Part shown: positions 8,778 through 41,855 of the stretch, one piece after another
How positions within the stretch are numbered: the stretch's first letter is position 1
How the letters are laid out: the number at the start of each line of letters is the position of its first letter
Origin: Catellatospora sp. TT07R-123
GTDB lineage: Bacteria > Actinomycetota > Actinomycetes > Mycobacteriales > Micromonosporaceae
DNA: 64,000 nt
Assembly: GCF_018327705.1 (NCBI RefSeq)
Contig: NZ_BNEM01000001.1
Location: forward strand, 186,001-250,000
Reading direction: 5' to 3'
Notes under the pieces: model-generated
Told to the model about the DNA's origin: nothing
The model's input: only the letters and a program-made list of their open reading frames with translations
The model's database searches: none
Program-made: the position numbers and the translations under genes

Positions 8778-9964
8778 TCCCGGGGCCAGGTGACCGGCAG
8801 CCGATCCATGCTGCGCAGGAACATGCGGTCCCGCCATGTGACCTCCGTGGTGTCCAGATGCAGGTGGGGGAAGCGGCGCAGCAGCGTCGCGAGCGCGACC
8901 TGGAGCTCGACCCGGGCGTGCGGGGCGCCGAGGCACAGGTGGCGGCCGTAGCCGAAGCCCAGGTGCGGGTTGGGGCTGCGGTCGGGCCGGAACTCGTCCG
9001 GCTCGTCGAAGGCGGCCGGACAGCGGTTGGCGGCGTCGGTGAGCGGGACGACGACCTGGCCTGCGGCGATCACGGTGCCGGCCAGTGCCACGTCGGCCAG
9101 CGCCACGTGCGGCTGGCCGCCGGTGCCGGCGAACCACACCCAGCGCAGCAGTTCCTCGACCGCGGCCGGGATCTGCTCGGGGTGGGCGCGCAGCCGCGCC
9201 TGCAGGGCGGGGTCGGCCAGCACGTGGTGGGTGCACATGGCCAGGTGGTTGGCGGCGGTCTCACCGCCCGCCATCACCAGCCCGAAGGCCATCACGACCA
9301 GCTCGGTCTCCGACAGCGGCTCGGGTGCGGCCACCAGCGTGCCGAGCAGGTCGGCGGCCGGGGTGCCCGCGTCGGCGCGGCGGCGGCGGTCGCGGACCTG
9401 GTCGGCGAAGTAGCCGAACATGCGCTCCCGGGCGGCGGCGACCTCGGCCGGGTCGTACGCACCGGCCGACATCATCACGTCGACCCAGGGCTGCAACAGG
9501 TCGATGTCGGCGGCGGGCACGCCGACCAGCTCGCAGATCACCCGGTACGGCAGCGGCCGCAGGTATGCCTCGACCAAATCGACGGGCTGGTCGGCGGCGG
9601 CCACGGCGTCGAGCAGTTCGTCGGCGAGCTGCTGGATGCGGGGCCGGGCCAGCTCGGCCTGCCGGTGCGTGAACGCGGCCTGCACGGCGCGGCGGCGCGC
9701 CGTATGGGTGGGCGGGTCGCTGGTGACCAGGGCCAGTGAGGCGGAGTCGCGGGCGAACATGGTGCCGCCGCCCCAGGCCTCGCGGCTGAACCGGTCGTCG
9801 GACAGCACGGTGCGTACGTCGGCGTGGCCGGTGACCAGCAGCGCGGGATGGTCGCCGCGGATGCGCACCGGGATGAGCGGCTGTTCGCGGTACCGGCAGG
9901 CGTAGCCGGAGTCGAGGCCCACGCCGGGCAGGTCGGGGAACGGGAACTGCGGGGCGTCGGTCAC
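8774..9964 (-). CDS. Cytochrome P450
   Basis: The 396-residue soluble bacterial P450 has the I-helix oxygen-activating motif AGGETAAN, the ExxR helix (EELLRW), and the heme loop FGYGRHLCLG with the axial thiolate Cys344. Length is standard for actinomycete class I CYPs. GTG 9964 overlaps the stop of the upstream phosphotransferase gene (GTGA), and its own stop overlaps the UbiA start, so it is co-translated. No ferredoxin or reductase gene lies nearby, so electrons must come from elsewhere. It probably oxidises an intermediate of the operon's product. Confidence 0.95.
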   Translation of the reverse strand: MTDAPQFPFPDLPGVGLDSGYACRYREQPLIPVRIRGDHPALLVTGHADVRTVLSDDRFSREAWGGGTMFARDSASLALVTSDPPTHTARRRAVQAAFTHRQAELARPRIQQLADELLDAVAAADQPVDLVEAYLRPLPYRVICELVGVPAADIDLLQPWVDVMMSAGAYDPAEVAAARERMFGYFADQVRDRRRRADAGTPAADLLGTLVAAPEPLSETELVVMAFGLVMAGGETAANHLAMCTHHVLADPALQARLRAHPEQIPAAVEELLRWVWFAGTGGQPHVALADVALAGTVIAAGQVVVPLTDAANRCPAAFDEPDEFRPDRSPNPHLGFGYGRHLCLGAPHARVELQVALATLLRRFPHLHLDTTEVTWRDRMFLRSMDRLPVTWPRE

Positions 9965-12558
9965 GGCGTTCCTTCGACGATGCGGACGGTTCCGGCGGCA
10001 CCGTCGATCTCGATGACGGCCCCGTCCGGGATGCGGCTGGTCGCCCCGGGGACGGCGACGACGGTGGGGATGCCCAGCAACCGGCCGGTGATCGCGGTGT
10101 GCGACAGCAGCGTGCCCCGCTCGACCACCAGGCCCTTGGCGGACATCATCAGGAACAGCCAGCCGGGGTCGGTCTCGCGGGCCACCAGGATGGTGCCCTG
10201 GCAGGAGCCCGCGGCGGTGTCGGGGCCGAGGACCAGCCGGGCGGGGGCCCGGACCACGCCCGGGGCGGAGCCGAGACCGCGCAGCTCGGCGGGGTCGGCG
10301 ACGGGTTCGAGCACCGGGGTGGACCGGGCCAGCGCGTCGGCGAGCGGGATGCCCGGTTCGGTGGCGAGCAGGACCTCGCGGGCGGGGGCGGCGGTCCAGG
10401 CGTCGTGCTCGGCCCGGCGGACGGCGACCAGGCCGCGCAGGTCGGTGCCGGGCAGGGTGCCGTCGAAGGAGCCCAGCACCTCGGTGACGGTGAGGTGGCG
10501 TACGTCGGCGGGGTCGGCCAGGCGCCCGGCGCGGGCCAGCTCGGTGCCCAGGCGCCACATGACCTGCCGGGACAGCCCGTAGAGCTGGGTGCGGCAGAAG
10601 CGGGTGTCCTCGCGTGCCCGGATGGTGGCCCGGACGGTGGCGGCCAGCAGCCGCAGCACGGTGCGGCGCAGCGGGCCGCGGCAGTCGCGGGCCAGGTCCG
10701 CGCGCGCCTGCGCGGTGGCGCGGGCCTGCTCCTCGCGCAGCCGGGCCGTGGTCAGACCCTGCTGGACGTACGGTCGGACCAGGTCGAGGACGGTCCACGG
10801 GCGCTGGCGCGGGGTGGGTTCCTCCAGTTTGAGGTCGTGCATGGCCCGGTCGCCGTAGCGGCGCACGTAGTCGGCGGCGGCATCGGCCACCGGCTGCCCG
10901 TGGCGGCCCGCGGTCAGGTCGCGCCACAGCGGCTCGGCGGCGTCTCCCGCCAGCAGGGCGTCCTTCAGGGCGGGGACGGCGCTGATCCGTTCGGCCAGGT
11001 CGACGGCGGCGTGCACGGCGCGCAGCGACCGGTTGGGGCGGCCGCCGACGAGCAGGCCGGTGAGCAGGCGCCGGTCGGCGCCGGTCCACCGGGTCAGCAG
11101 CGCGGTGGTGGCACGGATCGCGAGCATGCTGTACACGGAGTTGGTGAGGGTGACGCCCCACCGGCCGGACACCTCGGTCCACATGCGGCGGTAGTGCTCG
11201 ACCAGTTGCGGCGGGGTCAGGTCGGACAGGTCGCCCGCGGCGGCGGTCAGGCCGTCCCACCAGCGCAGGAAGGCCCGGACCTGGGCGGGGTGGCGCAGCG
11301 CGCGCAGGAGCAGCGGCGGCAGGCTGAGCCAGGCCCGGGTCTGGGACCAGCGCGGGGACTGCCGGGCGGGTCCGCGTACCCCCATGGCGTCCTCCCACAG
11401 CGGGCGGACCAGTTCGAACGCGGGGATCTGGCCGTGCAGGGCGTGCCAGGCGGCCAGGCGGTAGTAGATCCGGCCGTCGAGGAACGCGACCAGCTGCTCC
11501 AGGTGGTGGCGGTGCGCGTCGAACCTGCGGCGGGGCACGCCCATGCGCCGGTACAGGTCACCGAAGGCCCGCCGGTAGAACTCGGACGCCTGGGAGTACG
11601 TGAGCACCGACGACACCCCGGGATAGCTCTCGGTGATGTTGTGGTTGCACCAGTACTCGGGCGCGGCGGTGACCAGCGGCCGGGCCTGTACGAGGTGGAC
11701 GGCGCCGTCCTGCGTGATCACGCCTTCGATGTCCTGCGGGCCGCCGAAGGCCTGCTCGACCCGGGCGGCCAGGGCCGCGATGTGCCGGGCCTCGGCGTCG
11801 GCCAGCACCGGCGCGTCGGCGAGCGCGGCCGGGACCTCGCACACCTCGGGCTCGTCGCCGCCGTCGCGCGGCGGGCCCACCATCCGCTGCTTGCGGACCG
11901 GTTCGGCGGTCACCCGGCGGCCGGTGACGAAGAAGTGGTCGACGTCGGCCTTCTCTTGCACGATGCCCTCGCCGATGCCGTGGGCGGCCGCGATGACGGT
12001 CCGGCGGGCACTGTCGCGGGGATCGCGGGTGAAGGCGACGAACGACCTGGTGCCGGGCACCATCCGCTGTACGCCGACGGCGATGCGGGTCGCCGTGGGG
12101 TCCAGGCCGCGCCACAGCCGGTAGGCCACGGCCCGGTCGGTGAACGCCGACGCCCAGCAGTCGGCGACGCGGCGCAGCAGGTCGTGGCGGGGCACGTACA
12201 GGTAGCTGTCGCTCATGCCCGCGAACGGGTCGGCGCCGTCCTCGCCGCCGTGGCCGCCGGGGGCGGGCACGGCGCAGGCCCGTACCGCGACCAGGGCATC
12301 GGGGCCGAACACGGTGTCGAACGCGGTCAGCACCTGCGGCGGGACGGCGGCCCGGCGCAGCGCGGCGGCCGCGTCGGCGCACCATCCGGCGGGGTCGCCG
12401 GGGCGCGGCGGCGGCGCCACCGCCGCCAGCGCGTCGTCGAACGCGGCGGCGGGCAGGCAGAACAGCTCCGGCACCGGCAGCCCGTCGGCCCGCATCCGCT
12501 GGAGCCGGGCGAACTTGTGGCCGAGCTGCGCCGGGTCGCCGACGGCGTGACTGATCAC
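9961..12558 (-). CDS. PEP-synthase/rifampin-phosphotransferase-like enzyme
   Basis: The 865-residue protein has an N-terminal ATP-grasp part (RAC..., FVAFTRDPR, GIGEGIVQEK, and VHLVQARPLV at the end of the ATP domain), a long middle domain, and a C-terminal swivelling His domain (GTLLSHTAITGR, His about 820). Length and layout match rifampin phosphotransferases (about 867 residues), which use ATP to place the beta-phosphate on a substrate hydroxyl, giving AMP and Pi. PEP synthase has a C-terminal TIM barrel that is absent here. GTG 12558 overlaps the nitroreductase stop. In this operon it could be a biosynthetic phosphotransferase activating an alcohol, or a self-resistance or inactivation enzyme. 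Confidence 0.88.
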   Translation of the reverse strand: MISHAVGDPAQLGHKFARLQRMRADGLPVPELFCLPAAAFDDALAAVAPPPRPGDPAGWCADAAAALRRAAVPPQVLTAFDTVFGPDALVAVRACAVPAPGGHGGEDGADPFAGMSDSYLYVPRHDLLRRVADCWASAFTDRAVAYRLWRGLDPTATRIAVGVQRMVPGTRSFVAFTRDPRDSARRTVIAAAHGIGEGIVQEKADVDHFFVTGRRVTAEPVRKQRMVGPPRDGGDEPEVCEVPAALADAPVLADAEARHIAALAARVEQAFGGPQDIEGVITQDGAVHLVQARPLVTAAPEYWCNHNITESYPGVSSVLTYSQASEFYRRAFGDLYRRMGVPRRRFDAHRHHLEQLVAFLDGRIYYRLAAWHALHGQIPAFELVRPLWEDAMGVRGPARQSPRWSQTRAWLSLPPLLLRALRHPAQVRAFLRWWDGLTAAAGDLSDLTPPQLVEHYRRMWTEVSGRWGVTLTNSVYSMLAIRATTALLTRWTGADRRLLTGLLVGGRPNRSLRAVHAAVDLAERISAVPALKDALLAGDAAEPLWRDLTAGRHGQPVADAAADYVRRYGDRAMHDLKLEEPTPRQRPWTVLDLVRPYVQQGLTTARLREEQARATAQARADLARDCRGPLRRTVLRLLAATVRATIRAREDTRFCRTQLYGLSRQVMWRLGTELARAGRLADPADVRHLTVTEVLGSFDGTLPGTDLRGLVAVRRAEHDAWTAAPAREVLLATEPGIPLADALARSTPVLEPVADPAELRGLGSAPGVVRAPARLVLGPDTAAGSCQGTILVARETDPGWLFLMMSAKGLVVERGTLLSHTAITGRLLGIPTVVAVPGATSRIPDGAVIEIDGAAGTVRIVEGTP

Positions 12559-13157
12559 GGGGTGTTCCACCCGTCGAGGTGGACGACGGCGTGCAGCGGG
12601 AGCCGGGCGGCGGCCCGGAAGGTGCCGGTGGTGTGCGCGGTCGGGATGAGCGCGCCCTGCCGCACCCGGTCGGGCAGGTTGAGCAGGCGCGCGACCTCGG
12701 CTTCGCGGTCGAGGTGCACGGTCGTCCAGGCGGTGCCCAGGCCCCGGGCGCGGGCGGCCAGCATGTAGCTCCACGCGGCGGGCAGCAGCGAGCCCCACAG
12801 CCCGGCCTGGTTGCCGGCCGGCAGCTGCCCGTCGGGCAGTTCCAGGCACGGGATGACCAGGACCGGCACCCGGTGCAGCTGCTCGGCCAGGTGCCGGGCG
12901 CTGGCGAGTTCCCGGTGCGGACCCTGGGCGTCCGCCGGATAGCGGGCCTCGAACGCGGCGCGGTAGACGGCCCCGACGCCCTGGCGCAGCGCCGGGTCGG
13001 TGACCACGATGAAGCGCCAGTGCTGCCGGTTGCCGCCGGTGGGCGCCTGCACGGCCACCCGCAGGCAGTCGCGCACCAGGCCCAGGTCGACGGGACGGCT
13101 GAGGTCGAGGCGGCGGCGCACCGACCGGGTGGTGGTGAGGACCTCGTCGGCGTCCAC
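12555..13157 (-). CDS. Nitroreductase-family FMN oxidoreductase
   Basis: The 200-residue protein has the nitroreductase fold signature: the N-terminal RSVRRRLD FMN-phosphate contact, QAPTGGNRQHWRF, and the C-terminal GLGTAWT stretch. Members reduce nitro, enone or dehydro-amino-acid groups with NAD(P)H, or dehydrogenate azolines and dipeptides. GTG 13157 directly follows the TGA of the upstream gene (TGAGTG). The neighbouring LanM could in principle supply dehydro residues as substrates, but the gene is co-operonic with the AfsA/UbiA set, so its substrate is more likely an intermediate of that pathway. Confidence 0.9.
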   Translation of the reverse strand: MDADEVLTTTRSVRRRLDLSRPVDLGLVRDCLRVAVQAPTGGNRQHWRFIVVTDPALRQGVGAVYRAAFEARYPADAQGPHRELASARHLAEQLHRVPVLVIPCLELPDGQLPAGNQAGLWGSLLPAAWSYMLAARARGLGTAWTTVHLDREAEVARLLNLPDRVRQGALIPTAHTTGTFRAAARLPLHAVVHLDGWNTP

Positions 13158-13787
13158 TCACCACACCCCGGGGACGAGCCGGGGGTGGCCGGTGGCGTAG
13201 GCGGGGTAGCCGGGCATGTCCCACAGCACCCGCTCCTCGACCCGGATGCGCCAGAGCACGGCCGTCACCAGTGCGGCCAGGCCCGCCAGCGCGACGGGGT
13301 TCGCGAAGTACGCGACGAAGCCGACGTGGGCCAGCAGCATCCCGGCGTAGGCCGGGTGGCGCACCAGCCGGTACGGGCCGCTGGTCACCGCGACCTGGTC
13401 GGTGCGCATCGCCACGTGGTGGGAGTAGAACCGGCCGAGGGTGCGGATCGCGACCTCGCGCAGCGTGATGCCGCCCAGGAACACCAGCGCCGCGCCGACC
13501 GCGCGCACGGTTGCGGGCGGCCAGGCGGCGGGCAGCAGGATGGCGCTGCCGAAGGTGGCGATGCGGGCCAGCGCGTACGGCACCAGCGTGCGGACGTCCT
13601 TGAGCGGCACCGCGCCCCGGAACGTCACCGGCGCCTCGAACAGCAGCCAGCCCAGGTAAGCCCCGATCAGCGCGATGGCGGGCAGGTCGCCCCACCGCAC
13701 GACCAGGCCCGCGACCAGCAGGACGACCGCGACGGCGAACAGTATCCGCGGCGCGCGCAGCAGCAGCCGCTCCCATGTCGGCGTCAT
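13158..13787 (-). CDS. Isoprenylcysteine carboxyl methyltransferase-like membrane enzyme
   Basis: The 209-residue membrane protein has about five helices. The C-terminal half carries the ICMT/PEMT signature GPYRLVRHPAYAGMLL, followed by RIRVEER. These form the SAM and acceptor site in the family. Bacterial homologues methylate lipid, phenolic or quinone-like substrates (for example next to type III PKS genes) rather than prenylated proteins. Together with UbiA this suggests a membrane-associated prenylated and methylated small molecule. ATG 13787 overlaps the previous stop as ATGA. Confidence 0.85.
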   Translation of the reverse strand: MTPTWERLLLRAPRILFAVAVVLLVAGLVVRWGDLPAIALIGAYLGWLLFEAPVTFRGAVPLKDVRTLVPYALARIATFGSAILLPAAWPPATVRAVGAALVFLGGITLREVAIRTLGRFYSHHVAMRTDQVAVTSGPYRLVRHPAYAGMLLAHVGFVAYFANPVALAGLAALVTAVLWRIRVEERVLWDMPGYPAYATGHPRLVPGVW

Positions 13788-28494: not shown

Positions 28495-29610
28495 ATGGCA
28501 CATCCTGGGGCGGTCGTGGTGGACGTGTCCAACGTCTGCTGGTCCGGTGACCTGGCCCCGCGCGCCCACGGCGCGCCGGGGCCGGTGCTCGGCCGGCTGG
28601 ACACCCTGATCACGGCGTGGCGCGGCCTGCACGGCGCCGACGCGCCGATGACGCTCGTGGCGGACCGGTCCCTGCGCCACTGCCTGCCGCCGCGGGACCG
28701 CTCCCGGTGGCCCTCGGTCGCCCGGGAGCTGGACATCCAGACCGCCCCGGTCGCGGACGAGCTCATCCTGCGGCAGGCGGCCGAGAGCGGCCTGTGGGTC
28801 GTCACCCGCGACCACTACCTCGACCACCGGCGCCACCATCGCTGGATCGAGCAGCACCCGGAACGCTTCCTGCGCTGGCGGGCCGACGGCCGGGCCGTGT
28901 CGTTCGAGCCGCTCGGCATCACCAGCGCCCCGCACCAGCTGGTCTCGCAGCACGAGGAGGCCAAGGAGCTCAAGCGGGTCGGCCTGGACACCAGGCGGCA
29001 CCGGGAGATCCTGCTGACGCGCTGGCGCTGCGCGAACCCGCGGTGCCTACAGGCGAGGCTGTGGCAGGACGCGCTGCTGCTGTGGCCGGAGGTCGACCGC
29101 GACGACCGCGCGACCTGCCCGAGCTGCCGGGCGCCGCTGACCGCGCTCGGCCCCCGCGCAGCTGTCCGTCAGCTCATCGTGTCGGCCGCCGACGATCCGG
29201 ACACCGAGATCATCCGCTTCCCGTTGGAGGCGGGCACCCCGGTGGTCCTCGGCCGCGGCCGGCTGGAGTGCGGGGTCAGCCTCGACGGGCTGCCCCGCTC
29301 CCCCGCCAGGATCAACCGGCTCAGCCGCCAGCACGTGGCGGTCCGGCTCGACGAACAGGGAGCGCTGTCTGTGGTGGACATGGAGTCGGCCAACGGCACC
29401 GAGGTGCGCAACCCGGGGGCGGCCGACTTCCGGCGCCTGAACCCGGGCGACTGGGTCAACGTCGCCGACCGCGGCCAGGTCCGGCTCGGCGGCGTGGTCG
29501 TCCTGGAGCTGTCGGGGCAGCGGTTCCTCGCCGACCCCAGGCGCCCGCCCGAGCACGACCACGAGGCCCCGGCCACGGAGATCTCGACCACGTACGAAGG
29601 GCGCCACTGA
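28495..29610 (+). CDS. NYN/PIN-type nuclease with zinc ribbon and FHA domain
   Basis: The 371-residue protein has three parts. Residues 1-150 have the NYN/Zc3h12a-like PIN fold: acidic VVVDVSN near the start, then VADELILRQAAESGLWVVTRDHYLDH, with the expected Asp residues for a metal-dependent RNase. Residues about 180-225 form a zinc ribbon (CANPRC...CPSC). Residues about 240-350 are an FHA domain with GRG, LSRQHV and NGT motifs, which reads phosphothreonine. ATG 28495 is the first gene of a five-gene operon; its TGA overlaps the next ATG. Likely an RNA-cleaving effector recruited by kinase-dependent phosphorylation; the cleavage role is inferred. Confidence 0.82.
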   Translation: MAHPGAVVVDVSNVCWSGDLAPRAHGAPGPVLGRLDTLITAWRGLHGADAPMTLVADRSLRHCLPPRDRSRWPSVARELDIQTAPVADELILRQAAESGLWVVTRDHYLDHRRHHRWIEQHPERFLRWRADGRAVSFEPLGITSAPHQLVSQHEEAKELKRVGLDTRRHREILLTRWRCANPRCLQARLWQDALLLWPEVDRDDRATCPSCRAPLTALGPRAAVRQLIVSAADDPDTEIIRFPLEAGTPVVLGRGRLECGVSLDGLPRSPARINRLSRQHVAVRLDEQGALSVVDMESANGTEVRNPGAADFRRLNPGDWVNVADRGQVRLGGVVVLELSGQRFLADPRRPPEHDHEAPATEISTTYEGRH

Positions 29611-30857
29611 TGCTCGTCGGTTTGACCCGCGTGGGGCCGCTGCGCCAGCGGGTGGACAAGTGCTTCACCGTCACCGGCGGCCGCCAGGCCCCACAGGCGG
29701 CGACGGTGGGCGGGATCCGGCTCGAACCCGCCAGACGCGACGGGCTCTGGTATGCCGTGACCCCGCTGACGTGGCTGGGCAGCCCCGACAGCCGCGACGC
29801 CTGGGCCGCCCAGCTGTCCCGGGCGATCGGCACGGTCGGCACCGGCGGCGCGGCGGTCCTGCCGACGACCGTGCCCGGCCCGGGCGGGATCACCCCCGCC
29901 GGCGGCGACGTGCACACCCTGGAGGTGGCCTCGCCCGCCGAGCAGGAGGTGCTGTGCAACCTGCTGCGGGAGCACGTCCCGCTGCTGGTCGCGCTGACCT
30001 GCCGGACCGGCACCGTAGCCACCAGCGGGTCGTACTGGCTGGCCACCTCCCGCGAGCACGTGGCGGCGCGCTACCTGGCCTCCACCGCGCCCATGCACCT
30101 GGAGCGGGTCATCACCGAGCTGCGGCGGGTGGACGGGGTGGCGCAGCTGGAGCGGATGGACGTGTTCCCGTCGAAGGAGGACGACGGCACGCTGACCGTC
30201 ACCGTGCGCTGCGTCGAGGGCGCGAGCGTGGCGGCCGCCCGGGCGCACGTGCTGCTGCTGGCCGCGCTGGCCATGCACGCCCGGCGCCTCGTGCAGGACG
30301 GGCGCCGGCTCGGCCACCTGCCGCAGCGGCGGCTGGAGGAGAACCGCGCCCGCGCCGTCGCCCGGGGGCTGAGCTCGCGCATGTCCAAGGACGGGCCGGG
30401 CAGCGCCCCGGTTCCGGCGCGGCAGCTGGCCCGGTCGCTGCTGACCGACACGCTGGCCAAGGAGCTGGACAACCTGAGGGCGACCTCGCAGGAGCTGTTC
30501 CCGCTCATCGCCGCCATCGACCTGCCCCAGCTCGGCCTGGCGCGGGCGGCGACCGAGGACGAGCTGCTGCGCGGGTGGGCCGCCGACCAGGGCGCGAAGT
30601 TCGCGGGCATCGCCGCGCACGTGCTGCTGAACCAGGGCCCCGGCGGTCCCTGCCTGACGGCGGCCGGCCAGCTCGCCCCGGGCCGGACCAGCCTGCTGCT
30701 CGACGAGTGGACCGCGATCATCGCCGCACGCAGGGGCGGGGTCGGGACGTCGGGCCCGGCCAAGCGGCCCGGCCAGCCCGCGGCGGGCAGCGGCCGGGGC
30801 GACCAGCCGCACCGGCGCAACGACCAGCGGCGACCAGGACGAGGAGACAACCGGTGA
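29610..30857 (+). CDS. Divergent GCS2-like (carboxylate-amine ligase) protein
   Basis: The 415-residue protein has no certain family, but its middle resembles bacterial glutamate-cysteine ligase type 2 (YbdK-like): REHVPLLVALTCRTGT, then YWLATSREHV, then MDVFPSKEDDGTLTVTVRC, then AARAHVLLLAALAMHARRL and NRARAVARGL. In GCS2 these correspond to the hydrophobic core helix, the substrate Arg/Asp strand and the final Asn-Ala helix. It may ligate an amino acid to a peptide or protein using ATP. The C-terminus is a basic low-complexity tail. ATG 29610 overlaps the upstream TGA and its own TGA overlaps the next GTG. The domain call is my inference. Confidence 0.6.
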   Translation: MLVGLTRVGPLRQRVDKCFTVTGGRQAPQAATVGGIRLEPARRDGLWYAVTPLTWLGSPDSRDAWAAQLSRAIGTVGTGGAAVLPTTVPGPGGITPAGGDVHTLEVASPAEQEVLCNLLREHVPLLVALTCRTGTVATSGSYWLATSREHVAARYLASTAPMHLERVITELRRVDGVAQLERMDVFPSKEDDGTLTVTVRCVEGASVAAARAHVLLLAALAMHARRLVQDGRRLGHLPQRRLEENRARAVARGLSSRMSKDGPGSAPVPARQLARSLLTDTLAKELDNLRATSQELFPLIAAIDLPQLGLARAATEDELLRGWAADQGAKFAGIAAHVLLNQGPGGPCLTAAGQLAPGRTSLLLDEWTAIIAARRGGVGTSGPAKRPGQPAAGSGRGDQPHRRNDQRRPGRGDNR

Positions 30858-32203
30858 CAGCCGCCGACATCGAGGTCGTGCTCGACATCCGCGAGTACCG
30901 GCAGGAGAAGGCGGGCCGGGCCCTGCTCGATCCGGCCGAGTTGCAGGCGCTGTGGGACCAGATCGAGGGCGCGCTGGTCGACCGCGACCTCAGCGCCCGG
31001 CCGGTGCACACCCTCGGCCACCCGAACGGCGACATCCACGTACGGGTCGTGCGGATCAATCCGGCCAGCAGCCCCGTCGTCAGTCCGGGCACCACGTTCC
31101 AGATCACGACGGTGCTGGACCCGCCGCAGATCCGCTACCGGTGCCAGCGCTGCCCGAAGTACGGGCCGTTCCTGTGCCGGGACTGCGGCGAGGACCGCTC
31201 GGCGCGCCTGTGCGACGACCACGTCCTGATCCTGGACGGCTCGCTGCTCCCGACCTGCGAGAAGCACCGCCCGACGTGCGCCGAGTGCGGCGGGACGGCC
31301 TCCTTCCGCTGCACCGGGCGCAGCTGCCGCTCGCAGAAGGCCCACTGCGACCGGCACCGGGTGGTGCACCCGCACGACCCCGACCACGCGTACTGCCCGT
31401 CCTGCTTCGCCGAGAAGTTCCCGCGCTGCGAGATCGGGTCGTGCCGCAACATCGGGGCGAGCCCGTGCGAGATCGTCGACGCGGGCGTGGACCCGTGCGG
31501 CGCCCGGGTGTGCGCCATGCATCTGCGCCGGTGGCAGGTGTTCGGGGGCGAGGCGCTGGGGCTGGCTCTATGTGCCCGGCACTCGCGCAGCCTGCCGCAG
31601 GTCACGGCGGAGGAGCTGGTGCGCCAGATCGTGGTCGCGACCTACAACCGGTCGCTGCGCCGCGGCGGCGCGGAGCCGCTGCCGAGCCTGCGCGGGTTCG
31701 CCCACAGCATCCGGCCCCGCCACGCCGCGCTCGCGCTCGACTTCGACTGGATCTTCTCCACCCTGTCCAAGCTGGAGAACGGGTTCGCCGCAGGCCCGGA
31801 CCGCGCGCGGCTGCGGCAGCTGCTACAGGAGCGCCGGGCCGGTGACCAGCGGGGCCGCGTACGCAAGCCCTGGCAGCAGGAGAAGCAGGAGATCGGCGGC
31901 GCCAACATGCGCGGCGCCCAGCTGGTGGAGCAGTTGCGGGCGCTGGTGCGGCAGGTGGTCCGCCACGACGCCGACGCGGTCGCCCGGTCGATCTCGCTGG
32001 CCAGCTACCGCGCGCCCCGGCAGGTGCAGGGGGCCGCCCAGCCGGGCCTGCTGTTCGTCAAGGTGCCCGAGCAGTACCGGGGCGCGTTCAAGGGCCGGGA
32101 CAGGGCGAACATCGACTTCTTCGCCCAGCAGCTGTCCCTTCAGGAGCCGGGTGGCGTGACAGTGCGGATCGACGACGACAAGCGCGGCGGGGGACACCGA
32201 TGA
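30854..32203 (+). CDS. Cysteine/histidine-rich zinc-binding protein
   Basis: The 449-residue protein has an N-terminal roughly 90 residues of mixed alpha/beta, then a dense metal-binding region (about 95-235) with repeated CxxC and CxxH pairs: CQRCPKYGPFLCRDCG, CDDH, CEKH, CAECG, CRSQKAHCDRH, CPSC, and CEIGSC. The spacing suggests three or more treble-clef, B-box or RING-like fingers. The C-terminal 200 residues are helical and basic. It is probably an adaptor or scaffold, possibly binding nucleic acid or protein. GTG 30854 overlaps the upstream stop (GTGA) after GAGGAG. No named family is recognised. Confidence 0.75.
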   Translation: MTAADIEVVLDIREYRQEKAGRALLDPAELQALWDQIEGALVDRDLSARPVHTLGHPNGDIHVRVVRINPASSPVVSPGTTFQITTVLDPPQIRYRCQRCPKYGPFLCRDCGEDRSARLCDDHVLILDGSLLPTCEKHRPTCAECGGTASFRCTGRSCRSQKAHCDRHRVVHPHDPDHAYCPSCFAEKFPRCEIGSCRNIGASPCEIVDAGVDPCGARVCAMHLRRWQVFGGEALGLALCARHSRSLPQVTAEELVRQIVVATYNRSLRRGGAEPLPSLRGFAHSIRPRHAALALDFDWIFSTLSKLENGFAAGPDRARLRQLLQERRAGDQRGRVRKPWQQEKQEIGGANMRGAQLVEQLRALVRQVVRHDADAVARSISLASYRAPRQVQGAAQPGLLFVKVPEQYRGAFKGRDRANIDFFAQQLSLQEPGGVTVRIDDDKRGGGHR

Positions 32204-34128
32204 TCAGTTCGAAGGATCACCGCGCGGTCGGCCTGCCCGCCCGGGGACTCATCTCGGGGCAGCGGATCGGTGTCGCACCGAACGCGGGGACGAGCGGTCC
32301 GGCGCTGCTGACCGTGGCGGCGGCGGGCGGTTCCCGCCACACGGCCGTCGACCTGGTCTCCCATCCCGACGTCCCGGCCCGGACCCTGGCCGTCGGTGAG
32401 GACCTGTTCCACCAGCTGAACCTCGGCGACGACGTCCCCTGGAGCATCTCGACGCGCCCGGTGGTCGAGGCGTCGCAGCTGGTCCTGGAGCTGCCGACCG
32501 AGCTCAAGCCCGAGGAGATCGAGCAGACCAAGACCCAGATCGCCGGGGCGGGACTGGCCGGCTCGCTGCTGTGGGTCGCGTCGAGCGGCGGTGACCTACT
32601 GCTGGACGTGGCGGACGTGCCGTACCGGGTGACCGAGGTCGGCACCGGCGGCCAGCGCGACGTGATCGCCCGGATCGGGCCGCGGACCAGGATCGAGCTG
32701 TTCGCGCCGGGCGTCAAGGCCGGTGTGGACATCGTGATCCTCGCCGATTGCAGCGGTTCCATGGACACCGAGGACATCCCCATCCCCCGCGAGTCGGCGC
32801 TGGCGTTGCGCCGTACCGGCGAGATCCGGCGGATGGAGGCGCTCCAGCAGGCGCTGCGGGATCTGCTGGAGGTGCGGCTGCGGGTGTCGGGCCGGGTGTC
32901 GCGGATCGCGATGCTGGGCTTCAACACCGCGGCCACGCCGCGCTTCCCCCGCCAGGGCGGCATGGCGCAGCTGGACGGCGACTCGCCGCCCGAGGTGATC
33001 GCGCAGTTCCGGGACGCGATCACGCTGCTGCGGGCCGACGGCGGCACCAGTATCGGCAACGCCCTGCACGCCGCCGCGGACCTGATCTACCAGCACGGCC
33101 GACCGGGCAACGACCGCCTGGTGATCCTGGTCAGCGACGGGGCCGACTGGGTCCCCCGCGGCGAGAAGGCCACCGGCGAGATCCTGGAGGCGACCACCGA
33201 ACCGGTCAGCCTGATGACCCACCTGCACCGCGACATGCACATCCGCCTGCACGCGCTCGGCATCAGCACCCGCGAGCTGTACCTGCGCAAGTATCGGGAC
33301 CAGGTCGGTTTCACCCCGAACCACGACCTGCTCCAGGAGCTGGTGAACGTCGGCGGCGGCGACCCGACCGCGATCGGCGGCCTCGACGTGCTGGTCGAAT
33401 ACTTCTCCGGGGTGGGCGCCGGGGTGACCCACCGGGTCCGGGGCCCGCTGTCGGCACCGGCCCAGCAGCAGCTCGACACCGCGGCCCGGGACCTGCTGCG
33501 CGCCGCCTCGACGCGGCACGGAGCCGCGCACATCAACCACGAGCTGGAGGAGATCGCCACGGCGCACGACCGGGTCGAGACCATCGCGTTGCGGGTGTTC
33601 GCCGGACCGGTCGTCGCGCGGCGCGAGTTCGTGATGGCGCTGGCGCCGCTGCGAGAACAGCTCGACCCGGCCGAACTGCCCGGCGTGCTGCGGCGCTCGC
33701 TGCGGCGGCTGGCCCCGGCGCTGCCGGAGGCCGCGCAGCCGCCGACGGTGCGCAGCTGGGCGAGCCTGGTCGGCAGCCTCGCCGGCATGGTGTCCGGGGA
33801 CAGCCCCGACCTGCGCGGGCTGGGGATCATGTGCCAGGCCACCAGTGAGGCGCCGATCGATCTGGCCGGGGCGGTGCTGCGCCGGCTCACGCTCGCGCTC
33901 GCGGCCATCGCCGACGAGATCGACCGGCTGCCGGATCGGGCCGAGCCTGCGGCCCCGGCCGGCCAGGCGGCTCCGACCGGCTCCGCGGCGACGACGGTGC
34001 CGGACGGCGACTCGCGCCGGGCCGCGGCCACCGAGGTCGACGACCTGCCGCTGACCCGGCCCGACACCGGCACCACCCTGCCCCAGCAGTCGAAGCCCGC
34101 CGCGGGCGGCTTCGTCTACCGCGACTAG
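32200..34128 (+). CDS. vWA-domain protein of the NYN-FHA/kinase operon
   Basis: The 642-residue protein's first roughly 165 residues look like a small beta-rich domain with a DLVSHPDVPARTLAVGEDL stretch. The vWA domain has an intact MIDAS: DCSGS (Asp183, Ser185, Ser187), the Thr in GGTSIGNAL, and Asp in VSDGAD. The C-terminal part is helical and ends in a Pro/Ala/Thr-rich tail. vWA proteins assemble complexes in a metal-dependent way and are often paired with MoxR ATPases or kinases; here no MoxR ATPase is present. ATG 32200 overlaps the previous TGA. It is probably the platform of the system. Confidence 0.85.
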   Translation: MISSKDHRAVGLPARGLISGQRIGVAPNAGTSGPALLTVAAAGGSRHTAVDLVSHPDVPARTLAVGEDLFHQLNLGDDVPWSISTRPVVEASQLVLELPTELKPEEIEQTKTQIAGAGLAGSLLWVASSGGDLLLDVADVPYRVTEVGTGGQRDVIARIGPRTRIELFAPGVKAGVDIVILADCSGSMDTEDIPIPRESALALRRTGEIRRMEALQQALRDLLEVRLRVSGRVSRIAMLGFNTAATPRFPRQGGMAQLDGDSPPEVIAQFRDAITLLRADGGTSIGNALHAAADLIYQHGRPGNDRLVILVSDGADWVPRGEKATGEILEATTEPVSLMTHLHRDMHIRLHALGISTRELYLRKYRDQVGFTPNHDLLQELVNVGGGDPTAIGGLDVLVEYFSGVGAGVTHRVRGPLSAPAQQQLDTAARDLLRAASTRHGAAHINHELEEIATAHDRVETIALRVFAGPVVARREFVMALAPLREQLDPAELPGVLRRSLRRLAPALPEAAQPPTVRSWASLVGSLAGMVSGDSPDLRGLGIMCQATSEAPIDLAGAVLRRLTLALAAIADEIDRLPDRAEPAAPAGQAAPTGSAATTVPDGDSRRAAATEVDDLPLTRPDTGTTLPQQSKPAAGGFVYRD

Positions 34129-34138
34129 GAACCGGCGG

Positions 34139-35944
34139 ATGTACGACGATGAGCGCCCGGAACTCGGGCAACCCGGCTGGTACGTCGGCACCGACCGCGA
34201 GCCGCGGCTGTACCGGCTGGTCGAACGCATCCACCGCGGCGGCGAAGGCGTGGTGTGGCGGTGCGAGAGCGCCCAACCGGGCGCCGGCGGCCAGTGGGCG
34301 GTGAAGATCTGCCTCGGTAGGCAGCTCAGCAGCAACTACGACGAGGACCTGCGCAAGACGCTGAACCGCTGGGAGGCGATCTGGGACAAGACGATCGACC
34401 GGACCGGCCTGCTGTACGACCTCCCCGGCATCGTCCCGGCCACGCGCGTCTTCCAGGGACCGGCGCCCACCCCGGACGGCAGGCCGGCCGCCGACGCGCT
34501 CAACCACCGCACCCTCTGCCTGGTCACGCCCTGGGTGTACGGCCAGGACCTGCACGACTGGCAGCACGCGACCCGGCGCGAGCCCGACGAGGTGTTCGAC
34601 GTCCTCATCCGGCTCAGCCAGATCGTGGACCAGCTCGCCGACCGTGCCCAGGTGCACCGCGACATCTCGCCGCGCAACGTGATGATCGGCCGCGACGGCG
34701 GCATCGTGCTCATCGACTTCGCCTTCATGCGGGAGGCGGGCTCGCCGGTCACCCACATCGTCGTCAAGCGCGGCTTCAGCGCGCCGGAGCACGACATCGA
34801 CCCGGCCAACGACCGCTACTCCGTCGGTGCCGTCGCGTTCCAGCTGCTCACCGACATGCCGCCGCCGCAGTGGGACGTCATCGACACGGTCCGCCGGACG
34901 CTGGTCGGCCGCGGCTACTCCCGGGCGTTCGCCGATCAGCTCGTGCAGGTGCTGTACACCGACCCGCAGCGGCGGCCCGACCGGCTCACGCCGTGGGCCA
35001 CGGCCCTGCGCGGCCTCGGCCGCCGGTCGCAGGCCCCGCAGCACCTGGTCGACACCGCGCTGGTGGCCACCGCCGACGGCCTCACGGAACTGGCGATCGC
35101 CGGCACCGCCGTGGCGAGCAGCCGGATCTCCCCCAGCCTGCACCCGGTGCTGTCCGGTGACCACAGCGGCCCGGCGGAGTGCCGGTCGCTGGCCGGGGCC
35201 CGCCGCGGCACCGGGGATGTGACGCTGTTCGCGGTGGCCGGGCAGGGCGCGGTGTGGGTGCGGGCGGACGGCACGTGGCGGGAGGTGCCCGGGACGGCGG
35301 CCGACGGCTCCATCCGGGCCGCGGCGGCCGGGGACGGCCGGGTGTCGGCGTTCTTCCGCGAGCGCGACGGCGACCTGGCCTCGATCACGGTCGACATCGG
35401 CGCGGCGGTCACGGTACGCCGCCACCCGCAGCCGGTGCACCGCGTGCACAGCGTCGTCGAAGGCCCGGCCGGGCGGCCGGTCGTGCTGGCCGAGGACCGC
35501 AGCGGGCGGCTGCTGTGCGGCGAGCCGACGGCGCTGGAGCCCATCGGCCTGCGCGGGGCCGTCGCGGCGGACCTGGCGCTCGGCCAGGGGGGTGAGCTGT
35601 TCTGCGTCGCGGCGGTGCAGGGGGACCGCATCGCGCGGCTGGAGACCATCCGGGGGCAGTGGGACCAGCCCGACTGGCTCAGCGCCCCCGCCGAGGCCGA
35701 CGACGTGTCCTGCGTGGCGCACCGTACCGGCCTGACCGTGGCGCTCGCGTCGGCGGCGGGCATCTGGGTCCACGACGGCGGCGCGGCCGCCTGGCGCAAC
35801 GTGTGGACCTCCGCCGCCGACCGGGTGGTCCTGGTTTCCGGGCCCGGCTGGCGGCTCCAGCTCGCCGGGCTCTCCGGCCAGCAGGTGGTGTTCGCCGAGG
35901 AGGCGATGGCGGGCGAGTGGAGCCCGGCGTCCCCGGTGCGGTGA
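34139..35944 (+). CDS. Protein kinase with C-terminal repeat (propeller-like) domain
   Basis: The 601-residue protein's N-terminal kinase has a Gly loop (GGEGVVW), catalytic Lys56 (AVKIC), HRD at 173-175 (HRDISPRNVM), and an APE-like motif (FSAPEHD). The DFG motif is DFA (193-195), an uncommon but tolerated change, as Asp193 is kept. The C-terminal roughly 290 residues contain repeated beta-strand patterns (VTLFAVAGQGAVWVRADGTWRE...) that suggest a beta-propeller sensor. There is no TM helix, so it is cytosolic. ATG 34139 is 10 bp after the vWA stop, with AGGAACCGGCGG before it. It most likely phosphorylates Thr residues read by the FHA protein. Confidence 0.88.
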   Translation: MYDDERPELGQPGWYVGTDREPRLYRLVERIHRGGEGVVWRCESAQPGAGGQWAVKICLGRQLSSNYDEDLRKTLNRWEAIWDKTIDRTGLLYDLPGIVPATRVFQGPAPTPDGRPAADALNHRTLCLVTPWVYGQDLHDWQHATRREPDEVFDVLIRLSQIVDQLADRAQVHRDISPRNVMIGRDGGIVLIDFAFMREAGSPVTHIVVKRGFSAPEHDIDPANDRYSVGAVAFQLLTDMPPPQWDVIDTVRRTLVGRGYSRAFADQLVQVLYTDPQRRPDRLTPWATALRGLGRRSQAPQHLVDTALVATADGLTELAIAGTAVASSRISPSLHPVLSGDHSGPAECRSLAGARRGTGDVTLFAVAGQGAVWVRADGTWREVPGTAADGSIRAAAAGDGRVSAFFRERDGDLASITVDIGAAVTVRRHPQPVHRVHSVVEGPAGRPVVLAEDRSGRLLCGEPTALEPIGLRGAVAADLALGQGGELFCVAAVQGDRIARLETIRGQWDQPDWLSAPAEADDVSCVAHRTGLTVALASAAGIWVHDGGAAAWRNVWTSAADRVVLVSGPGWRLQLAGLSGQQVVFAEEAMAGEWSPASPVR

Positions 35945-38816: not shown

Positions 38817-40580
38817 TCAGAAGCTGCTGAGCAGCTTCACGAACGCCTCGTCGATGAGCTGCGGATCCTGCGCGTCGAACGCCTTGCCCGCGGTGGCCTT
38901 GGCGATCGCGTCCAGCGTCTTGAGGTCCGAGCCCTTGTCGAAGGCGATGCAGAAGACCTTGACCGGGCGGTCGGGGTCCAGTTCGATCGCCTTGAGCAGG
39001 CTGGCCAGATTGTCGTCCTTGGCGTACTCGTTCTCGCCGTCGGTCAGCACCACGACGGCGTTGATCCGGTTGCGGTCGTAGTGGTCCAGCAGGTACCGGT
39101 GGGCGGCGCGGACCGTGGCGTACAGCGCGGTCGCGCCTCCGGCCTGGAGCCCGTCCAGCCGGTCCGTGAACGCGCCGAGGTCCAACCGCGACAGCGGGAT
39201 CTGCTCCCGGTACGGCAGGTCGCCCGACCCCTGCTTCTCGGAGGAGAACGACCACAGCCCGACCCGGTCCTCCGAGTTGAGCAGTCGCAGCCCCTTCGCG
39301 GCGGCGGCGGTGGCCACCTCCAGCCGGGTGTGCGCGCCGACGGTGTTGGCCACCATCGACCCGGACACGTCGACGGTCATCAGGATGTTCGCCTTCTTGC
39401 GCAGCGTCGCCCAGCTGTCCAGGATCTCCTGCACCACCGCGGGCGCGGGCGGCAGGAAGTAGGGCATGCCGACGGCCTCGTGGCCGCCCACCGCCGCGGT
39501 GAGCTCGGGCGTGGCGACCCGCTCGTGGTCGCGGAAGCCGAGCCCGGCGAACGCCCGCTGCTGCGGCTCCTCCTGCAGGAACGCCAGGAAGTCGGCGGCG
39601 GCGGCCCGCTGCGCGTCGGAGGCGTCGGGCAGCACCACGTACGGGTGGTCGAGGTTGAAGGTGCCCTCTTTCGGATAGATCGCGACGAGCGGCTCGTGCG
39701 GTCTGTCGCCGGGGTGCGGGCTCAGTCTGCCCTCGTTGTAGAGGTAGACGAGCTCCTCCTGCATCACGATGGCGCTGAGGTCGGCGCCCGCGCCGTCGAC
39801 CCGGGACAGGTCGGCGGCGGCCAGCGACCGCAGCAGGTCCACCGAGTCGTCGCTGTAGTGGGAGACGTTGGCCTCGATGCGGCGTACGAACTGGGTCACC
39901 TCCGGCTGGCGCACGGCGATGCCGGTCAGGTCGCTGGAGGTGCCGGTGGCGGCGTAGTAGGTCGCGATGGTCGCGGCCAGGCCGGAGGTGGACAGGCGCG
40001 GGTTGTCCTTGCCGAAGGTGAACCGCTTCCATTCCGGCTTGCCGAACGCGCCCCAGCCCTCCTCCCCGGACATGCCGAGGATGTCGCCCCAGCCGAGGCC
40101 GCGCTGCTGCAGGACCTTGGCCTTGGTCGCGGGCATCGCGATGACCAGCGGGCTGTTGGCGATGGACGGGTAGCTGCCCGGGGTCTGCTCGGCCCGCTTG
40201 GCGGCCTGGTCGCGCAGCCGCAGCTGGCCGGTCCACAGGCTCGACGTCGGCAGCCACACCTGCGGCCGGGGAATTCTGCCGCCGGTCTGCGCCGACCAGT
40301 CCCCGGCCAGCGCCTCCATGGCGGCGCCGGAGGTGAGCCCGGAGACGGTCACGTCGGCGCACCGGCCGCCGAACCGCCTGCGGCTGCTGTCGTACCGGTC
40401 GGCGAGCTCGGCGACCAGCACGTTCTTCTCGGTCGAGGACAGCACGTCCAGCGCCACGCAGTCGCTGCGGTCGGTGTCGAGCCGGACGTAGGCGTAGGAG
40501 CCCGCGATCACGGCGACGCCGACCACCACGGCGACGGCGACGGGGAGCCACCTGCGAGCGGTCGAGCGGCCCGGTGCCAT
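38817..40580 (-). CDS. Membrane-anchored vWA protein with solute-binding-like domain
   Basis: The 587-residue protein has an N-terminal TM helix (about residues 11-30, WLPVAVAVVVGVAVIAGSYA) that anchors an extracellular part. Residues about 45-350 resemble a periplasmic-binding fold (VWLPTSSLW, YPSIANSPLVIAMP, GDILGM). The C-terminal third is a vWA domain with MIDAS DVSGS, the Thr of GGATALYATV and LTDGENE. ATG 40580 follows GGAGGAACGC. It is 27 bp after a membrane-associated kinase gene on the same strand, so the two form a two-gene unit in which the extracellular sensor may be linked to kinase signalling. Confidence 0.85.
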   Translation of the reverse strand: MAPGRSTARRWLPVAVAVVVGVAVIAGSYAYVRLDTDRSDCVALDVLSSTEKNVLVAELADRYDSSRRRFGGRCADVTVSGLTSGAAMEALAGDWSAQTGGRIPRPQVWLPTSSLWTGQLRLRDQAAKRAEQTPGSYPSIANSPLVIAMPATKAKVLQQRGLGWGDILGMSGEEGWGAFGKPEWKRFTFGKDNPRLSTSGLAATIATYYAATGTSSDLTGIAVRQPEVTQFVRRIEANVSHYSDDSVDLLRSLAAADLSRVDGAGADLSAIVMQEELVYLYNEGRLSPHPGDRPHEPLVAIYPKEGTFNLDHPYVVLPDASDAQRAAAADFLAFLQEEPQQRAFAGLGFRDHERVATPELTAAVGGHEAVGMPYFLPPAPAVVQEILDSWATLRKKANILMTVDVSGSMVANTVGAHTRLEVATAAAAKGLRLLNSEDRVGLWSFSSEKQGSGDLPYREQIPLSRLDLGAFTDRLDGLQAGGATALYATVRAAHRYLLDHYDRNRINAVVVLTDGENEYAKDDNLASLLKAIELDPDRPVKVFCIAFDKGSDLKTLDAIAKATAGKAFDAQDPQLIDEAFVKLLSSF

Positions 40581-40607
40581 GCGTTCCTCCTGTGCTGGGG
40601 GTGAGCG

Positions 40608-41855
40608 TCAGCGCTCGGACGGGTCGGGTTCACCGCGGTCCAGCGCGGCGGCCAGGACCAGGCGGACCAGGTAGACGGTGCCGAACGCGACGGCGCCCAT
40701 CGTCGCGGCCGTGGCGGTGTCGGCGGCGGCGACGAGGCCCGCCGCGAAGCCGCCGGCGCCGAGCAGGATCGCGGCCGAGATCCCGACCGGGTCGCCGGCC
40801 TGGCGGCCGAGCCGCCGCGGCCAGCCGGCCGGGGGCACGGTGAGCAGGGTCGGTGCGGGCACCGGGACCACGGCGGTGGTCTGGGCGTACGCGGGCGGCG
40901 GCGCTGCCGTGGTCGAGGTGCCGGTCGCGTACACGGTGCCGGTCGCCGCCGTCGCGGGCAGCACCGAGGTCGCGGCCGCGTCGCTGCCCTCCCGCAGCGC
41001 GGCACCCAGCGGGATCTCCGCCGCGGGCTGCGCGGTGTGGCCCAGCAGCCGCAGCAGGATCTGCTCGGCGGTGGGCCGGGCGTACTGGTCCTTGGCCAGC
41101 CCCTCCCCCACCAGGTCGAGCAGCGTGCCGGACAGGTTCGCCAGGTCCGGCGGCTCGTGCAGCACCCGGGCCATCACGGTCGCCAGCGAGTCGTGGCCGA
41201 ACGGGCCCCGACCCGAGGCGGCGAAGGCGATGGTGGCCGCCCAGCCGAAGATGTCGCAGCGCGGGCCGATGTCGACGTTGTGGAACCGCTCGGGCGCCAT
41301 GTACGGCACGGTGCCCATGACGTTGCCGGTCAGCGTGTGCGTGCCCATCGCGCGGGCGATGCCGAAGTCGATCACGCGTGGGCCGTCCGCGCCGAGGATC
41401 ACGTTGTCCGGCTTGAGGTCGCAGTGCACGATGCCCGCGTGGTGGATCGCCGCGATCGCGGTGGCGGTGCCGACCGCGAGCCGGTAGAGGGCGTTGCCGG
41501 AGACCGGGCCGTGGTCGCGGACCTGCCGGTGCAGGGTGGGTCCCTCGATGAACTCGCTGACCACGTACGGGTGCTCGCCGTCGAGGTCGGCGTGCAGGAT
41601 CTGGGCGGTGCAGAACGGGGCGACCCGCCGCGCGGCGGCGATCTCCTTGCCGAACCGGGCCTTGGCTTTCGGGTCGTGTTCCAGGTCGATGGTCAGCATC
41701 TTCACCGCCACCTGGCGGTCGGCGGGGTCGGTGCCGAGGTAGACCACGCCCTGCCCGCCCTGGCCCAGCCTCCCGTGCAGCCGGTACGGCCCGGCCGTGC
41801 GTGGATCGTGGACGGTCAGCGAGGTCAGCTGGGGCGTCTGCGCAGGGTTCGGCAC
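40608..41855 (-). CDS. Ser/Thr protein kinase with C-terminal membrane helices
   Basis: The 415-residue Hanks-type kinase has the Gly loop GQGGQGVVY, catalytic Lys52 (VAVKML), HCDLKPDN, DFG (VIDFGIARAM) and APE (MAPERF), all intact. A Pro/Ala/Thr linker leads to two hydrophobic helices near the C-terminus (IGISAAILLGAGGFAAGLVAA and GAVAFGTVYLVRLVLAAAL-like). There is no PASTA domain. GTG 41855 follows GGGAGGCAGCAGGCC. The vWA gene lies 27 bp downstream, so the sensing module is a separate protein. Confidence 0.92.
   Translation of the reverse strand: MPNPAQTPQLTSLTVHDPRTAGPYRLHGRLGQGGQGVVYLGTDPADRQVAVKMLTIDLEHDPKAKARFGKEIAAARRVAPFCTAQILHADLDGEHPYVVSEFIEGPTLHRQVRDHGPVSGNALYRLAVGTATAIAAIHHAGIVHCDLKPDNVILGADGPRVIDFGIARAMGTHTLTGNVMGTVPYMAPERFHNVDIGPRCDIFGWAATIAFAASGRGPFGHDSLATVMARVLHEPPDLANLSGTLLDLVGEGLAKDQYARPTAEQILLRLLGHTAQPAAEIPLGAALREGSDAAATSVLPATAATGTVYATGTSTTAAPPPAYAQTTAVVPVPAPTLLTVPPAGWPRRLGRQAGDPVGISAAILLGAGGFAAGLVAAADTATAATMGAVAFGTVYLVRLVLAAALDRGEPDPSER

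Follow-up and report, generated by a model that had tools for sequence, protein, structure and literature searches.

What do five tightly packed genes of an actinobacterial genome do together, and does their combination belong to any system already described? The question is raised by a 64,000-nucleotide stretch of the 9.17-Mb genome of Catellatospora sp. TT07R-123 (contig NZ_BNEM01000001.1, positions 186,001 to 250,000; hereafter the window), in which five plus-strand open reading frames, here called g1 to g5, follow one another almost without spacing: g1 (28495-29610, 371 residues), which joins a predicted NYN nuclease to an FHA domain; g2 (29610-30857, 415 residues), a predicted pseudo-ligase of the GCS2/YbdK fold; g3 (30854-32203, 449 residues), zinc-rich and multi-fingered with a KH-like C-terminus; g4 (32200-34128, 642 residues), built around a vWA domain; and g5 (34139-35944, 601 residues), a Ser/Thr protein kinase. 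All begin with ATG except g3, which begins with GTG. In the list of open reading frames g1 and g2 overlap by 1 bp, g2 and g3 by 4 bp and g3 and g4 by 4 bp, while 10 bp separate g4 from g5; the G+C fraction at third codon positions is 0.95-0.97 in each gene. An earlier sequence-only reading had proposed that these frames are functionally coupled; the coupled layout is real, and the order g2-g3-g4 recurs in all 15 complete loci that we found. We hypothesize that the five genes encode a modular conflict system built around the vWA protein, directed against invaders or arresting growth, with g2-g3-g4 as its core and a kinase/FHA/NYN output, a reading to which, judging from sequence, we give about an even chance.

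Relatives were collected by a profile scan of genome contigs with a three-row g3 alignment and by genome searches with g3; at most 4 to 26 top candidates were scored per genome, so that the counts are lower bounds. The first contig scan gave five loci: two in Actinoplanes, two in Streptomyces and one in Pseudosporangium. The system was found in at least 8 of 67 genomes (9 places) of the Actinoplanes-containing genus, at least 5 of 343 genomes of Streptomyces, at least 9 of 330 of the family and at least 1 of 11 of the window’s genus; samples of the phylum (at least 1/396) and of the class (at least 1/374) each returned only the window’s own genome, and an earlier single-protein search had given at least 3 of 150 in the family. 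Once duplicates were merged (L010, L011, L032 and L039 repeat L013, L017, L014 and L016, respectively, on contigs of equal length), 16 distinct loci remained, and exclusion of one fragment, L038, left the 15 complete ones. The fragment (G559:C30:28001-48000, approximately 9268-10844) holds only a partial g3 and the vWA part of g4, and looks decayed or cut-down. The g2 of L016, missed by the gene caller, was added separately. A search with g2 itself produced four non-self matches, namely one YbdK-family protein (L009) and three frames judged spurious by eye.

Conserved gene order in other genomes, whose failure the sequence-only reading had named as a possible refutation, is what these loci display: all 15 have g2, g3 and g4 side by side in that order, at g4 identities to the window's own protein that go down to 29-57%. 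Because the same order recurs throughout, the set must be more than a chance assembly. The junctions are similarly tight, with a 4-bp overlap of g2 and g3 in 12 of the 15 loci (a 32-bp gap in two, a fusion in one) and a 4-bp overlap of g3 and g4 in 12 of 15; the gap between g3 and g4 in L035 is 74 bp as called, and varies with the start chosen. The fusion, in L037 (8702-11053), makes g2 and g3 one protein of 783 residues, and therefore supports a physical partnership of the two.

This core is constant, whereas the genes on either side of it are missing or exchanged in some loci, a division that the sequence-only reading had missed. Both g1 and g5 are present in eight loci (the window, L013, L014, L015, L016, L033, L034 and L040), g5 without g1 in L041 only, and neither gene in six; the two, which stand at opposite ends of the operon, co-occur (Fisher p 0.0014, phylogeny ignored). 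One replacement is seen between two Streptomyces loci whose operons share approximately 91% identity: between matching flanks, almost the whole of the L040 g1 (12254-13384) gives way in L041 (12811-15387) to a NACHT ATPase gene, transcribed divergently, together with a gene for 239 residues. In L017 (6432-8218) and L035 (12488-14397) genes for EACC1 and a caspase lie directly upstream of g2-g3-g4, and in L042 (6609-7814) and L043 (276-1499) the gene directly before g2 encodes a protein of 401-407 residues with no Pfam match above cut-off, whose two C-terminal hydrophobic stretches look by eye like two transmembrane segments, making it a putative membrane protein. L036 and L037 have no obvious partner among the neighbouring genes inspected.

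The domain labels first given to the five proteins are borne out, those of FHA, vWA and kinase by matches above cut-offs, NYN through homologues, and the GCS2-like label through fold and profile comparison. In g1, the NYN domain occupies approximately residues 5-128 (28507..28878, plus strand). RNase_Zc3h12a, the NYN profile, matches the window copy weakly and below its cut-off (E 0.066), and profile matches to ZC3H12C are also weak (best E 0.022); among eight homologues, RNase_Zc3h12a is found in five at E values up to 1 (best E 3.8e-6), and the acidic residues D10, D57, D88 and D106, as well as N13, are invariant in 8/8. By profile and conserved acidic residues the N-terminus of g1 is an NYN (PIN-like) ribonuclease domain, for which RNA cleavage is predicted. 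The linker that follows contains four cysteines, C179, C184, C208 and C211 (29029..29127, plus strand), invariant in 8/8, which would bind zinc. Beyond it lies the FHA domain (residues 251-319 in the Pfam range; 29245..29451, plus strand), which matches above the Pfam gathering score (E 1.7e-4) and is recovered in 8/8 homologues at E up to 1. The core motif by which FHA domains read phosphothreonine consists of GR and SxxH residues; in g1 the corresponding G253, R254, S277, R278 and H280 are invariant in 8/8, the NGT loop is partly conserved, and the domain is on this motif a predicted phosphothreonine reader.

The presumed writer, g5, combines its kinase domain with a large C-terminal region, and its C-terminal half looks propeller-like by eye. 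The kinase match passes its cut-off, Pkinase is present in 9/9 homologues, and the catalytic residues K56, H173, D175, N180 and D193 are invariant in 9/9; by its lysine, HxD, asparagine and DFG aspartate, g5 has the residues of an active Ser/Thr kinase. The earlier proposal that a kinase writes what an FHA domain reads is therefore upheld at the level of key residues in both partners. In PADLOC, g5 matches mad6 over its kinase part (E 4.2e-19) and also the PD-T4-6 and MkoA kinases; NCBIfam MAD6 scores 40.9 of 460 bits, far under its cut-off, and TCAD9 is matched by 3 of 9 g5 proteins (best E 2.1e-5). These resemblances are suggestive of a weak link to known conflict kinases. None of g1-g4 matches a PADLOC family at E up to 1, so that with kinases alone matched the operon does not correspond to a PADLOC-listed system.

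At the head of the core, g2 (29610..30857) matches a GCS2-like NCBIfam model at E 1e-3, far under the model’s cut-off, and a sequence search of the PDB returned nothing useful; its GS/GCS2 fold was confirmed by comparison of its predicted structure and by profile comparison (hhalign). In fold and sequence homology g2 resembles the YbdK/GCS2, PafA and Dop ligases, whose Mg/ATP-binding motif it has lost. Carboxylate-amine/ammonia ligases are marked by an Ex[EH] motif that lies on core strand 1 and binds Mg/ATP (a part of PMC2588565 describes it), and no such motif occurs within the first 45 residues of any of the 15 g2 proteins (residues 12-22 form strand 1 in the model); triplets of the Ex[EH] type in L015 and L016 lie at residue 48-49, outside strand 1. 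The strand expected to hold the acidic motif carries an invariant lysine, K17. D100-x-H102, invariant in 15/15, fits the [HD]x[NH] of strand 4, in a register taken tentatively from the model strand at 101-105, after which the hhalign alignment begins. The Ex[RK]x2D pattern of strand 6 is not kept: its glutamate occurs in 2 of 15 proteins (L036 and L037), and its last aspartate is present in 14 of 15 and is a glutamate in the window copy. The g2 proteins of L017, L035, L036, L042 and L043 have an additional C-terminal region that is missing from the kinase clade and might be where other outputs dock.

The second core protein, g3 (30854..32203), is marked by 23 cysteines and histidines that are invariant in 15/15; its Cys/His-rich region (residues 97-243; 31142..31582, plus strand) would hold approximately six zinc sites if each takes four ligands. 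Its KH-like C-terminus (approximately residues 398-440; 32045..32173, plus strand), which the sequence-only reading had overlooked, is matched by KH_1 in 8 of 15 g3 proteins (E no higher than 1, lowest 6.3e-5; the window copy is not among them), and a g3 profile found KH proteins in the PDB (best E 0.0074). A GxxG pattern is present in 9/15, and is degenerate (FKGRDR) in the window copy.

The third, g4 (32200..34128), consists of a beta-rich N-terminal domain (residues 1-165; 32200..32694, plus strand), a vWA domain (residues 174-411; 32719..33432, plus strand), a helical C-terminus and a low-confidence tail in an AF2 model with a mean predicted local distance difference test (pLDDT) score of 60.6, the N-terminal domain scoring 69-91 by block. 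The vWA domain passes its Pfam cut-off, and its metal-ion-dependent adhesion site (MIDAS, DxSxS...T...D; D183, S185, S187, T283 and D313) is invariant in 15/15, which bears out the vWA protein proposed for this set. In VIA the domain aligns with numerous vWA proteins; ArnAB is one of them, at rank 48 among many ties, a match generic for the fold. Sequence and profile searches of the PDB gave no match to the N-terminal domain; SPATA5, NSF and p97 chains appear within the Foldseek top 50, listed without aligned ranges, and suggest that it is p97/NSF-N-like. Chains of GATOR1 lead the same Foldseek list, with a best E of 3.0e-11 and, at rank 2, an entry named DEPDC5 dimer at E 8.9e-11; the alignments span 364-413 columns, and the TM-score over the model is low (0.23-0.26). 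Residues 1-411 of the window copy are a possible bacterial relative of the N-terminal arrangement of DEPDC5, which serves eukaryotic nutrient signalling and may share with g4 no more than the order of domains.

From these parts we propose the following mechanism. The Zn-rich region and KH-like domain of g3 would probably sense or hold RNA, g2 would probably bind a nucleotide or other anionic ligand that it no longer ligates, and g4, with its p97-N-like domain and MIDAS-bearing vWA, would scaffold the complex. The kinase would phosphorylate threonines, most likely on itself or on the long tail of g4, which by analogy is a candidate target; docking of the g1 FHA domain on the phosphothreonine could then bring or release the NYN ribonuclease, and cleavage of the RNA held or sensed by g3 would halt growth or infection. 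The core of the relatives is joined instead to the EACC1-caspase pair, the putative membrane protein, or the NACHT ATPase gene that replaces g1. Tentatively, and with confidence short of even, we extend this to an undescribed immune class of multicellular actinobacteria, in which an RNA-binding pseudo-ligase/p97-N-vWA platform reads foreign or damaged RNA and exchangeable outputs are attached via adaptors (phosphothreonine/FHA for the RNase, EACC1 for the caspase).

The surroundings of the operon were also surveyed. In the window it is flanked by a transporter and an epimerase-like gene (named by eye), between which gene calling found no gene beyond g1-g5, and the window has no tRNA according to ARAGORN. 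In an empty-site comparison within the genus the transporter is kept in 11/11, and across five stretches the only other window gene to match did so weakly, at 29% identity, in two of them. Apart from the operon, the minus strand of the window (38817-41855) holds a kinase-like gene (40608-41855) beside a vWA-like gene (38817-40580), both recognized by eye. Ten flanking proteins from four loci (L015, L034, L040 and L041) were compared with PADLOC: LmuB-like matches beside L040 and L041 adjoin an SbcD-like gene, and Pfam calls the L041 one SbcC-like, so that a Lamassu assignment was rejected in favour of SbcCD-like pairs; a BovA-like match near L034 is a CHAT-domain protein and was left as incidental. 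An 875-residue CHAT-domain (caspase-like) protein is encoded on the minus strand two genes upstream of the operon in L034 (3566-6193).

Defence is favoured as the purpose because of the rarity and patchiness of the system, its module exchange, and the EACC1/caspase link to the systems described in part of PMC7159879. Several observations weigh against the conflict-system reading. Ala or Thr takes the place of the DFG glycine in 9/9 g5 homologues, the GxxG of the KH-like domain is eroded in the window g3 and five of the remaining 14, and a conserved TxxD docking motif was looked for in the g4 tail, where TxxD sites are not conserved. The kinase is kept without NYN-FHA in L041, and the nine kinase loci form one clade in both the g3 and g4 trees; the co-occurrence of g1 and g5 may therefore reflect a single event, not nine independent cases. 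Viral contigs and plasmids gave no match to g3 queries. No defence island was seen among the ten flanking proteins of four loci, and the window flanks are ordinary by eye: of the neighbourhood evidence first envisaged, conserved co-occurrence was found, and enrichment in defence islands was not established in that sample. The last point suits a growth-state or stress regulator, in which nutrients or stress would set FHA-vWA docking through the kinase and NYN would trim selected transcripts, since an NYN domain is not necessarily a killer nuclease and the motility regulator ArnA-ArnB has the same FHA/vWA/kinase logic (a part of PMC6509490). We consider this possible and rather unlikely, given a rare, accessory distribution (seen above for genus and family) and outputs swapped for caspase/EACC1 or NACHT as in described conflict systems (passages of PMC7159879).

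A toxin-antitoxin-like unit, with the NYN-FHA toxin held off by core and kinase until damage or infection, would agree with a nuclease gene at the 5' end of coupled genes and with its replaceability; four partner genes far exceed the usual antitoxin, however, and the kinase outlives the nuclease in L041, making this improbable. It is very improbable that g2 is an active amide ligase tagging a protein or peptide in a pupylation-like manner, with the zinc protein as its adaptor: the modifying ligase of the sequence-only reading is not supported because the Mg/ATP-binding Ex[EH] is missing in all 15 homologues, and with the strand-6 glutamate also missing in 13/15 and K17 in the motif’s own strand, an active enzyme was rejected. 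That the five genes are chance neighbours without joint function is hardly credible at all; only the small number of genomes speaks for it, and it is refuted by synteny conserved in 15/15 complete loci at the low g4 identities given above. On the conflict-system reading, one operon of patchy occurrence brings together a vWA scaffold, kinase/FHA signalling and predicted RNA cleavage, and the same core stands beside a caspase module elsewhere; it thus becomes testable whether bacteria defend themselves or arrest growth in a programmed way through a phosphothreonine switch that sets off RNA decay. The bacterial signalling repertoire would also gain a ligase fold put to new use and a vWA protein with a p97-N-like domain.

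How does the operon compare with known systems? As the sequence-only reading had supposed, no name for the set was found in the open-licence PubMed Central (PMC) literature searched. TerY-P triads consist of kinase, PP2C phosphatase and vWA genes. They share with the operon a kinase beside a vWA gene, and a kinase-PP2C-vWA set is placed within the GAP1-N2 theme in passages of PMC7159879; because the five genes include no PP2C, the likeness earlier drawn to these triads shrinks to kinase and vWA, and membership was rejected. ArnA-ArnB, which with ArnC/ArnD regulates the Sulfolobus archaellum, shares the FHA/vWA/kinase logic; it is archaeal and regulates motility. To our knowledge it has no NYN, GCS2-fold or Zn-KH partner. 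Its kinases phosphorylate the C-terminus of the vWA protein, where the FHA protein binds (a part of PMC6509490).

A further comparison is with the VMAP/iSTAND vWA-MoxR ternary systems, vWA-centred as the operon is, which count kinases, FHA and PIN RNases among their effectors (passages of PMC7159879 and PMC8195603). Most of their kinases have disrupted catalytic residues according to the same passages, whereas those of g5 are kept, and membership was rejected, no MoxR AAA+ ATPase, VMAP or iSTAND being among the five genes. The main texts of PMC7159879 and PMC8195603 contain no mention of GCS2, although loci may be listed unnamed in supplementary tables, and they mention NYN 0 and 3 times, respectively, the returned NYN passages concerning animals; the g2-g3-g4 core was not found in the returned passages of PMC7159879. 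The EACC1-caspase two-gene system (Kaur et al. 2020, passages of PMC7159879) resembles the operon in joining a constant component to exchangeable effectors in multicellular actinobacteria; this pair adjoins the triad in 2 of 15 loci (L017 and L035), but neither gene is among g1-g5, and the operon is not itself such a system. The operon is conserved and, in the literature searched, undescribed, and it belongs with the effector-exchanging, vWA-centred systems of actinobacteria.

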